Shown piece by piece: positions 33,129 through 36,487 of a stretch of DNA of 36,487 nt. Below the pieces are notes generated by a model. The model saw only the letters and a program-made list of their open reading frames with translations. It did no database searches and had not been told where the DNA came from. How positions within the stretch are numbered: the stretch's first letter is position 1; each line of letters starts with the position of its first letter. Position numbers and translations under genes: made by a program. This stretch comes from Roseateles toxinivorans. Its GTDB lineage: Bacteria > Pseudomonadota > Gammaproteobacteria > Burkholderiales > Burkholderiaceae_C. The stretch covers positions 1-36,487 of the forward strand of contig CAMDHE010000041.1 of assembly GCA_945898095.1 (NCBI GenBank), written 5' to 3'.

Positions 33129-33617
33129 TCAATTGCGTTGGTAGGTGACAAAGTCATAGGGCCAGCCTTGGGGACTGGTCTTTTCTTCGCGAAAAATCTC
33201 GGTAAATTGCTGGCGATCCCAGGCTGGAAAAAAACTGTCCGCATCGAAATCGGCATCAATTTCGGTCAATTCCAGCCTGTCAGCCCGGGAAATCGCCGCA
33301 GTGTAGATCTCCGCGCCGCCGATCACGTAAACCCTGAGGGCTCCGGCGCAGGCTTTCAATGCGGCGTCGAGCGAGTCGAAGACCTCGGCGCCTTCGAGTT
33401 GCAAAACCTTGTGCGACAGCACCAGGTTGCGCCGACCGGGCAGCGGCTTGAATCGGTCAGGCAGGGAATCCCAGGTCTTGCGTCCCATGATCACCGGGTG
33501 GCCCGAGGTCAGGGCCTTGAAACGGGCCATGTCTTCGGGCAGCCGCCAGAGCAACTGGTTGTCACGACCAATCGCGCCCTGGCGCGCCACTGCAGCGATC
33601 AGGCTGATCGCCGTCAT
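33129..33617 (-). CDS. folA: Dihydrofolate reductase FolA
   Basis: NADPH-dependent reduction of dihydrofolate to tetrahydrofolate, regenerating the cofactor consumed by ThyA. The 162-aa protein begins [17 protein letters not shown]. It has the catalytic acid Asp29 in [11 protein letters not shown], the NADPH-binding [12 protein letters not shown] and the loop YVIGGAEIY. The ATG (33615-33617) overlaps the thyA stop by 4 bp, so the two enzymes of the thymidylate cycle are translationally coupled. The frame is open further upstream inside thyA but only as an out-of-frame shadow. DUF4337 follows. Confidence 0.97.
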
Positions 33618-34453
33618 ACGGCGACCGGCGCCTTGATCGCGGGGTGTGGCAGGTAGCCGGTCAGTTCGAAGTCTTCGAGTTCGTAGTCGAACAAGGTCGG
33701 CGGCCGGCGCTTGATCTGCAATTGAGGGTAGGGCAGCGGCTGGCGTGCAAGTTGTGTCTGCACCTGCTCGAAATGATTGCTGTAGATATGGCAGTCGCCG
33801 CCGGTCCAGACGAAGTCGCCCAGATCGAGCTCGCATTGCTGCGCCAGCATCTGTGTCAGCAAGGCATAGCTGGCGATATTGAAGGGCACACCCAGAAAAA
33901 TATCGGCGCTGCGCTGGTAGAGCTGGCAGGACAGCTTGCCGCGGCCGCCAGGCGATTCGGCTGGCGCCACATAGAACTGGAAAAATGCATGGCAAGGCAT
34001 CAAGGCCATCTTCGGCAGGTCGGCGACATTCCAGGCGCTGACGATGATGCGGCGTGAATCGGGGTTGGTTTTCAGCTGCTCCACGACCTGGGCAATCTGG
34101 TCGATATGGCCACCATCAGGGGTCGGCCAATTGCGCCATTGCACGCCGTAGACCGGACCGAGGTCGCCGCTTTCAGGTGCCCATTCGTTCCAGATATTGC
34201 AGCCGCGTTCCTGCAGCCATTTGACATTGGAGTCACCGCGCAAGAACCAGAGCAATTCGAGCACGATCGACTTGAGATGCACTTTCTTTGTCGTCACCAG
34301 CGGGAAACCCTGGCTCAGATCGAAGCGCAATTGGTGGCCGAACACGCTGCGCGTGCCGGTACCGGTGCGGTCCATCTTGGTCACGCCATGCTCGAACACA
34401 TGGCGCATGAAGTCTTCGTACTGGGATGAAGTCTGGGAGGGGCTTGTGCTCAT
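33614..34453 (-). CDS. thyA: Thymidylate synthase ThyA
   Basis: Converts dUMP to dTMP using 5,10-methylene-THF, producing dihydrofolate. The 279-aa protein has the arginine phosphate site [20 protein letters not shown], the nucleophile Cys154 in [29 protein letters not shown] and the HIYSNH motif. The length is slightly above the 264-aa E. coli form because of an extra [10 protein letters not shown] loop after the active site. The ATG 34451-34453 gives a short Ser/Thr/Gln-rich leader. It is the first gene of a thyA-folA(-DUF4337) operon. Confidence 0.98.
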
Positions 34454-34552: not shown

Positions 34553-34747
34553 ATGTCCACTGCTGAAAAACCGGATGAAGTTGAACGCGTAGCCTGCGAA
34601 ATCTGCCTGAAGGAGGTGCCTTTATCCGAAGCGACGGTCCCCGAGGGGACGGACTATTTTGTGCATTTTTGCGGGCTTGATTGTTTTCAGACCTGGCAGC
34701 GCCAGCAGGACAAGCCTGCTGCCGAGATGGGTGACCCAGCGGCCTGA
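34553..34747 (+). CDS. Small four-cysteine protein (DUF3330-like)
   Basis: A 64-aa acidic protein with Cys15, Cys18, Cys40 and Cys44, in the pattern CEIC...HFCGLDC. This spacing suits a small zinc-binding knuckle, and the segment [20 protein letters not shown] resembles DUF3330 proteins. There is no DNA-binding basic patch or membrane segment. AAGGA lies seven bases before the ATG. Function is unknown. It diverges from thyA and precedes the Tgl-like gene by 170 bp. Confidence 0.75.
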
Positions 34748-34917: not shown

Positions 34918-36021
34918 ATGGGCTCGAGATCAGGGCAAGTGGCCGGTGGTTTTTTGACGTTGCCGCCCGGGGATATGGCGGCTTGTGTCGATGCCTTGCG
35001 AAAGCTCGGGCTCGAAGAATACTTGTGGAACTCGGCCGAGATTGGATTTCTGGCGCTGAAACCCGAATTGCTGAACCGCTTGGCACCGGCCTACGACACG
35101 ACCGGTCTGTGCGAGATATTGCATTGGGACACCGAAACCAGCGATCTCGATCTGCAGCGCGAAATCTGGCTGGCCTTGCTCGCAACTCCCTGGCCGCAGC
35201 ATTTCCCCAGCTATGCTGAACTGGCTGCCGCGGTGCGAATGCGCGCCAATATCGTCCATGCCGCCCGCAAGACGGCGCTGGCATTTCACACCCATGTGGC
35301 CGAACGGCCAGCCGGTTTTTGGACCTACTCGCGCGAGACCAGCTTCACCGTACGGCCTGGTTGTTCCTTGATCGAAGCGCTGGAGCGCGCCACTCAGCCC
35401 GAAGTCAGCGGGCAGCTCTATGACTTCTCCTGTTACCGGGCCACCGAATATGTGATTTTGCTGGCAATGGCCAAGGAAGCTAGCGAGCACAACCCGGCCT
35501 TGTTCGCCCGCATGCAGTTGCAAAGCGAGCGCAATGCGGTGATGTCGGGGCAGTTCCATGAAGTGTTCTTGAGTGAGCTGGGTACCAATGAAGTCCCGTT
35601 GCCGCCGGCTTATTACGTGCCCGGTGATCGGGTCTGGTTCCGCAATCCGGATGCAGTCTCCTCCGACGTGACTGGTTTCGAGGGATCTTGGGTGTTTTAT
35701 CTTGGTCAGGGCTTGTTTGCCAATTTCTGGAAGCGCGATCAACCCTTCACCCTGCTCGGCAAATGCGTCGAGATCTATCACTGGCGCCACGGCACTTATC
35801 TGGACGCTGCTGGCGAACTCCGGATGGATGAGAGCAAAGTGGCCGAGCAGGTGGCTTTGACCCTGGCTGACCCGGTCGCCAGCGCCGCAGTGTTTGAGCG
35901 GATGATGCGCTGGCGAGATCTTGCCGGCCAATACCTCGAGGGCGGCTGCATTGACCGCACCCGCGAGAGCCCTCGCTGGATCTGCGCCGGCACCGCCGAT
36001 ATACGCCTGCCCGATGCCTGA
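34918..36021 (+). CDS. Tgl-like protein (remote protein-glutamine gamma-glutamyltransferase homologue)
   Basis: A 367-aa protein with no signal peptide. Residues about 97-285 can be aligned by eye with Bacillus spore-coat transglutaminase Tgl. SYAELAAAVRMRANIVHAAR matches the Tgl SIAELMFELKLRMNIVAAAK segment. DFSCYRATEYVILLAM matches FECATAIVIIYYLAL around the nucleophile (here Cys172). GDRVWFRNPD then matches GDCLYFKNPE, and WVFYLGQGLFAN matches VILLGEDKYFAH. Tgl cross-links proteins through glutamine-lysine bonds. Here the residues aligned with Tgl Glu115, Glu187 and His200 appear to be Ser171, Ser257 (Glu255 nearby) and Asn269, so activity is uncertain. A 95-residue N-terminal region and a 75-residue C-terminal region are extra. 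GAGG lies about five bases before the ATG. It overlaps the next gene by 8 bp. Confidence 0.65.
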   Translation: MGSRSGQVAGGFLTLPPGDMAACVDALRKLGLEEYLWNSAEIGFLALKPELLNRLAPAYDTTGLCEILHWDTETSDLDLQREIWLALLATPWPQHFPSYAELAAAVRMRANIVHAARKTALAFHTHVAERPAGFWTYSRETSFTVRPGCSLIEALERATQPEVSGQLYDFSCYRATEYVILLAMAKEASEHNPALFARMQLQSERNAVMSGQFHEVFLSELGTNEVPLPPAYYVPGDRVWFRNPDAVSSDVTGFEGSWVFYLGQGLFANFWKRDQPFTLLGKCVEIYHWRHGTYLDAAGELRMDESKVAEQVALTLADPVASAAVFERMMRWRDLAGQYLEGGCIDRTRESPRWICAGTADIRLPDA

Positions 36022-36487
36022 CGGCTTTGTCAGCGGACCTATCGTTGAGCAAGCAGGAAGCAGTGCAGCATCGGAAAGAAGGCTAGCGCCTCGATTACCG
36101 CTGGTCGACGCGTTCAAATTCGTCGCTTGCCAGTTGATTGTTCTGCATCATCTCGCCTTTTACGGTCCGATCGGCGACGCTATCGCGGCTCAGTCCCCGC
36201 TACTTTCTTTCGGCCTGATTGAATATGCCCGCATGGTGGTGCAGGTATTTCTGGTGTTCGGCGGTTATCTCGCTGCGCAAGGCCTGTTGCGCGAGCCGCC
36301 GCGCTGGGCTGCTTTGCCCGGCCTGTTCTGGCAGCGCTATTTGCGCCTGGCCTTGCCGCTGGCTGCGGCCCTGATGGTGGCGATGGCAGTCAACGGGCTG
36401 ACGCGGCCCTGGCTCGACGCCGACACCGTGTCGGCGCCGGTGAGCTGGGGTCAGTTGGCTGCGCATCTGGCGCTGCTGCATTCCATG
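36014..36487 (+). CDS. Acyltransferase 3 family membrane protein (5' part, runs off the window)
   Basis: The open frame runs to the window end without a stop (158 codons visible). After a cytoplasmic leader it has PLVDAFKFVACQLIVLHHLA, the first membrane helix with the conserved Asp and His-His of OafA/YrhL-type acyltransferases. A second helix, VVQVFLVFGGYLAAQGLL, follows, then the loop FWQRYLRLALPLAAALMVAM with the family Arg-Tyr-Leu-Arg. These proteins acylate sugars, peptidoglycan, lipids or peptides using membrane-delivered acyl groups. The ATG at 36014-36016 lies inside the last codons of the Tgl-like gene (8-bp overlap), so the two proteins are translationally coupled. The acceptor is unknown. 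Confidence 0.85.
   Translation, partial: MPDGFVSGPIVEQAGSSAASERRLAPRLPLVDAFKFVACQLIVLHHLAFYGPIGDAIAAQSPLLSFGLIEYARMVVQVFLVFGGYLAAQGLLREPPRWAALPGLFWQRYLRLALPLAAALMVAMAVNGLTRPWLDADTVSAPVSWGQLAAHLALLHSM

Follow-up and report, generated by a model that had tools for sequence, protein, structure and literature searches.

A Tgl-fold protein of Burkholderiales that keeps the nucleophilic cysteine, lacks both Tgl glutamates and facultatively adjoins a membrane acyltransferase gene

A protein encoded at the end of a Roseateles toxinivorans contig has the fold of the Bacillus transglutaminase Tgl and keeps its nucleophilic cysteine, but both glutamates at the Tgl active site are replaced, and in some lineages the gene adjoins that of an AT3-only membrane acyltransferase (AT3). 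The reading we prefer, to which we give roughly an even chance (about 0.5), is that of a cytosolic Tgl-fold thioester enzyme whose catalytic partner has migrated, which was recruited repeatedly beside AT3 and which acts without AT3 elsewhere. The window, that is the whole stretch of DNA analysed (36,487 nucleotides), corresponds to an entire contig (C41) of a 4.7-Mb R. toxinivorans assembly, and the features discussed below are collected in Table 1.

Table 1. Positions within the window of the Tgl-like gene, its conserved sites and the adjoining acyltransferase gene.
Feature	Position	Strand	Basis
Tgl-fold gene, 367 aa (Cys172, Ser171, Glu255, Ser257, His288)	34918..36021	+	ORF, Pfam, profile, AlphaFold, alignment
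Codons Ser171-Cys172-Tyr173, nucleophile site (Tgl Glu115-Cys116 position)	35428..35436	+	Coordinates counted from start 34918
Codons Glu255-Gly256-Ser257 (Tgl Arg185-Gly186-Glu187 position)	35680..35688	+	Alignment
Codons His288-Trp289-Arg290, conserved C-terminal motif	35779..35787	+	Alignment
8-bp overlap of acyltransferase start codon and Tgl-like stop region	36014..36021	+	Sequence; same in L026 and L027
AT3-only membrane acyltransferase gene (PF01757), 5' part, 158 codons, cut by contig end	36014..36487	+	Pfam

The relationship to Tgl, which a preliminary description had proposed from an alignment by eye, was borne out at the levels of profile and structure. The protein matches the Pfam family TGL (PF20085) over residues 75-275 with an E-value of 2.9e-30 and 105.8 bits, the cut-off being 23.7, as do all 53 members of our alignment A1 with the family. 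Against PDB sequences, phmmer found Tgl 7c9j at E 1.3e-5 and 4p8i/4pa5 at E 0.22, while a profile reached E 4.7e-14 and 8e-6, respectively, with Tgl entries as its only significant matches. The AlphaFold model, built from 53 sequences, has a mean pLDDT of 93.5 and a pTM of 0.93, and Foldseek placed Bacillus Tgl 4p8i first among PDB entries (E 5.1e-6, probability 1.00; TM 0.61 when normalised to target length, 0.42 to query length); it was the sole structural match at E<=0.001, the next one standing at E 0.32. Besides the core fold, the two proteins share the nucleophilic cysteine at the start of a helix and motifs of the types GD...F.NP and YLG.GLF. They differ in the long additions of the Roseateles protein at its N-terminus (about residues 1-75) and C-terminus (about 275-367), noticed from the outset, which lie beyond the Pfam match, are mostly modelled with high confidence and hold residues invariant in the family. 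In addition, the protein scores only 31.3 bits for the NCBIfam Tgl equivalog, far under the cut-off of 307.

The alignment to Tgl, whose register is anchored on the YLG.GLF motif common to 7c9j, equates Cys172 with Cys116, Ser171 with Glu115 and Ser257 with Glu187. The preliminary description had seen the cysteine kept and these two glutamates seemingly replaced, and both points hold across the family: in the main group of sequences (group A, 109 rows, window included) Cys172, Glu255, Gly256, Ser257, Lys282, Glu285, His288 and Trp289 are invariant, Arg290 occurs in 108 rows, and position 171 is Ser in 106 rows and Gly in three. The third Tgl residue, His200, which sits at the back of the Tgl tunnel, corresponds to Phe270 only when positions are counted without gaps, the multiple alignment having a gap there. 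Conservation at the genome-contig loci is possibly inflated, because these were fetched with peptide patterns, one spanning Ser171-Cys172 and another His288; in the rows obtained by whole-genome search without such patterns, Ser171, Cys172, Glu255, Ser257 and His288 are each present in 44 of 44, these rows being the best-scoring matches, with weak matches left out of the alignment.

A distant group B keeps Cys172, Glu255, Gly256 and Ser257 in all five rows, together with Lys282, Glu285 and Trp289, and has Gly at 171. In both groups, then, Glu-Gly-Ser stands where Tgl has Arg-Gly-Glu, a pattern that suggests an upstream shift of the glutamate by two residues. His288 would characterise group A, its place being taken by Gln in all five group B rows. 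Group B represents a second PF20085 subfamily (L021-L025, from genomes G067, G123, G102, G060 and G135), in which the open frames span 268-535 aa and the motifs are GCY, GYEGS and YQWR. The two groups coexist in G060 and G135, and G269 and G450 carry two PF20085 matches each.

Tgl is known as an enzyme of the spore coat whose Cys-Glu dyad is unusual and is backed by a second glutamate: in the parts of PMC6490927 used here, the nucleophile Cys116 of the B. subtilis enzyme is paired with Glu187, Glu115 being able to replace the latter, and mutants C116A, E115A and H200A are reported to be inactive whereas E187A retains about 60% of the activity. On the reading we prefer, Cys172, placed at the N-terminal end of its helix, would attack an amide or acyl donor, a thioester would form, and the acyl group would be passed to an amine or another acceptor. 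The role of general base/acid, which in Tgl belongs to the Glu187 position, may have passed to Glu255, located two residues earlier where the same strand begins, to His288 in the helical C-terminal part, or to both; Glu255 and/or His288 would then be the new assistant of Cys172.

Three other readings have to be weighed against this one. The protein could be an ordinary protein cross-linking transglutaminase, which would perform the Tgl reaction on cytosolic or envelope proteins with a relocated helper, its AT3 adjacency being incidental operon packing. Fold and nucleophile are those of Tgl, and the replacement of Glu187 by Glu115 in Tgl itself means that the catalytic partner can shift. Yet Tgl becomes inactive when Glu115 or His200 is mutated, and the present family has Ser or Gly at position 115 and Ser in place of Glu187; that other residues are invariant there suggests a new constraint, and we regard this reading as improbable. 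A papain-like/NlpC-P60 superfamily hydrolase, whether amidase, deamidase or peptidase, that uses water as the acceptor appears to us similarly doubtful. PMC10318531, which names the TGL family and, in the sections drawn on here, treats it together with NlpC/P60, CHAP and amidases, describes a superfamily with many amidases and multiple active-site migrations among papain-like enzymes; the NlpC/P60 protein 6biq also appears in the Foldseek search, at a non-significant E of 3.8. Tgl, however, is the only significant match by structure and by profile, and the Glu187 that Tgl uses instead of a histidine, according to the same source, is Ser257 here. Finally, the loss of both catalytic glutamates would be expected of a catalytically dead or binding protein in which Cys172 has another role. 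This we hold to be the least probable of the three, given the presence of Cys172 in 109/109 group A and 5/5 group B rows, the many invariant polar residues and the strong purifying selection on the gene (dN/dS 0.085, window versus L026).

The migrated-partner enzyme we favour is most likely cytosolic, judging from its N-terminus. In a crude hydropathy test, none of the 53 A1 members had a 15-residue stretch above 1.6 on the Kyte-Doolittle scale within the first 45 residues; with a 19-residue window, three of the 53 came just above 1.6, the highest at 1.67. An exported enzyme was therefore rejected, there being no hydrophobic N-terminus in 53/53 members by this test. Other roles were also discarded. 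Neither the Tgl-like nor the AT3 protein has a PADLOC match, which speaks against anti-phage defence, and phage cargo was rejected since none of 18 pattern matches in viral contigs is a relative; PHROGs gave a weak match for the Tgl-like protein (E 0.088) and an O-acetyltransferase family for AT3, and the BFVD structure search returned nothing below E 0.49. Plasmid-borne copies were likewise rejected, no relative being found on plasmids at E 0.01.

Of 399 genomes sampled from the order of the window, 40 have a PF20085 match, as do 4 of 398 sampled from the phylum, a draw which includes members of the order and in which all four positives carry the kinship label of the window's own order. Within the genus, a protein search of 18 genomes (G000-G017) found the Tgl-like protein in three (G000, G016 and G017). 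Among 14 control genomes, through which alone other phyla were sampled, only Bacillus subtilis has a PF20085 match. Scanning genome contigs yielded 74 loci, labelled for the most part as Burkholderiales or other betaproteobacteria, which are not known to sporulate. One locus, L074, is labelled as a Verrucomicrobia MAG and groups inside the betaproteobacterial family in the tree of Tgl-like proteins (TGL tree); a binning error may be the reason.

In the window, the Tgl-like gene ends with a TGA at 36019-36021 and the AT3 gene begins with an ATG at 36014. The resulting 8-bp overlap, already noted in the preliminary description, is identical in L026 and L027, which belong to same-genus genomes (G016 and G017). 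The start of the Tgl-like gene is well fixed, because only four in-frame codons separate its ATG from the previous stop. Gene calls at the loci were taken from a codon model, longest-ORF calling being unreliable in high-GC DNA; this model placed the AT3 start at a later TTG in all three genomes (window, L026, L027). The ATG at 36014 is nevertheless a plausible true start, since the first 30 AT3 codons are under purifying selection (dN/dS 0.119 between the window and L026, a small sample). AT3 as a whole is, like the Tgl-like gene, under purifying selection, with a dN/dS of 0.131 over its 158 codons in the same comparison. Residues 158-367 of the L026 AT3 are matched at the extreme end of a different contig from the window's assembly (G000:C207).

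The partner is a genuine member of PF01757, scoring 38.4 bits for the part in the window and 76.5 bits for the intact L026 copy (L026:3820-4920); no SGNH domain was matched in the partner protein P0003. Like AT3-only membrane acyltransferases, the 46 aligned homologues have His46 in the first helix region (46/46) and the RXXR motif formed by R108 (46/46) and R111 (44/46, Lys in two). They differ in having K35-X10-H46 in place of R-X10-H (Lys in 45, Arg in one), a motif of TMH1 called absolutely conserved in AT3 proteins in the portion of PMC9833829 cited here, and in that the gene sometimes adjoins one for a Tgl-fold protein.

To score adjacency, every ORF of the loci was searched with a profile derived from the AT3 genes next to the Tgl-like gene. 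Of the 74 genome-contig loci, 19 have AT3 beside the Tgl-like gene, with no more than 176 bp between the matched stretches, and none was seen in the other 55; because some loci end near the gene (e.g., L074 and L093), 19 is a lower bound. Sixteen of the 19 lie downstream on the same strand, one lies upstream on the same strand (L061) and two are divergent (L030 and L040); the partners in these last three loci are true PF01757 members according to Pfam. Thirteen downstream pairs outside the window's genus are spaced by -4 to 31 bp. Among the 16, L068 has an intact Tgl-like gene followed, about 60 bp on, by a 94-aa ORF of which 34 residues match AT3, and this remnant is a sign that AT3 can be lost while the Tgl-like gene stays.

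We also searched with the AT3 Pfam model the 44 whole genomes carrying a Tgl-like gene, out of 54 with any match, and obtained 77 AT3 matches (split genes counted twice). AT3 is adjacent in seven of the 44 (G000, G016, G017, G019, G030, G064 and G082), being the sole AT3 match in G019, G030 and G064. In 14 of the 44, AT3 goes unmatched at E<=1e-8, though completeness is only 82-91% for some of these genomes. The pairing is thus facultative, with no AT3 in 55/74 loci and 14/44 genomes, and the basic reaction of the enzyme probably does not depend on AT3, considering the adjacency of AT3 in 7/44 genomes and its lack in 14/44. The coupling of the two genes proposed in the preliminary description stands insofar as the pair recurs in other genomes, with the qualification that it is facultative. 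None of the three refuting conditions named there applied, as profile and fold match Tgl, Cys172 is conserved in the homologues and the gene pair recurs; overall, the observation made there was confirmed, and its interpretation is partly supported. As to the cross-linking transglutaminase with incidental operon packing, it agrees with most loci showing no AT3, and is opposed by an adjacency that is repeated and takes different orientations.

Two trees bear on how the pairing arose. In the AT3 tree (46 rows, the non-adjacent ones restricted to best whole-genome matches), the adjacency label needs three changes, all forced by supported branches, so that at least three are required. The partners of the window lineage, on a long branch, and the divergent partners of L030 and L040 nest among non-adjacent homologues, apart from the partners in Curvibacter, Rhodoferax and Hylemonella; L061 forms a very long branch whose placement is unsure. 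In the TGL tree (111 rows, a quick method with no bootstrap) adjacency needs seven changes, of which four are forced, and the nearest relatives of the window lineage (Roseateles L028 and L029; L006) are unpaired. Together, these patterns favour repeated recruitment beside AT3. The alternative to several gains, an old pairing with many losses, may also account for them, as the trees cannot separate both.

The other neighbours of the Tgl-like gene are genus-specific and mostly housekeeping-looking (names given by eye), and therefore offer no hint of the substrate; a second conserved partner gene was rejected, as neighbours differ by genus. Upstream in the window (33129-34453, - strand; 34553-34747, + strand), genes resembling those for dihydrofolate reductase and thymidylate synthase were recognised by eye, along with one for a 64-aa DUF3330 protein; none is evidently connected with the Tgl-like/AT3 pair. 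AT3 homologues elsewhere adjoin lipocalin-like, regulator-like or other genes, again by eye, and give no pathway hint.

In window-type lineages, then, the migrated-partner enzyme would have been recruited beside an AT3-only membrane acyltransferase, where it probably shares a cell-surface target with AT3 and prepares or modifies that molecule, or its carrier, ahead of or in parallel with acylation across the membrane; in unpaired lineages it would act without AT3. Against a joint role at the surface stands the description of AT3 acceptors as extracytoplasmic, in the parts of the AT3 review PMC9558356 cited here, set against a Tgl-like enzyme that looks cytosolic. A bolder proposal, which we think unlikely, is a two-part surface-modification system assembled several times independently, in which the Tgl-fold enzyme with its migrated Glu/His would serve the AT3-only acyltransferase from the cytosolic side and would load, amidate or cross-link the acceptor or its carrier.

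The homology to Tgl as such is already recorded in Pfam. Among the matches listed in the open-licence literature, no description of the rewired branch or of its pairing with AT3 was found, and the word "transglutaminase" occurs 0 times in the portion of PMC9558356 covered here. A conserved Burkholderiales branch in which the cysteine has stayed, both glutamates are gone and a new Glu and His have become fixed amounts to a natural experiment on the relocation of a catalytic residue. The same review raises, in that portion, the question of a partner requirement in AT3-only proteins. The recurrent pairing supplies a concrete candidate, and the two-part system, if true, would show for these lineages whether such proteins work with partners.
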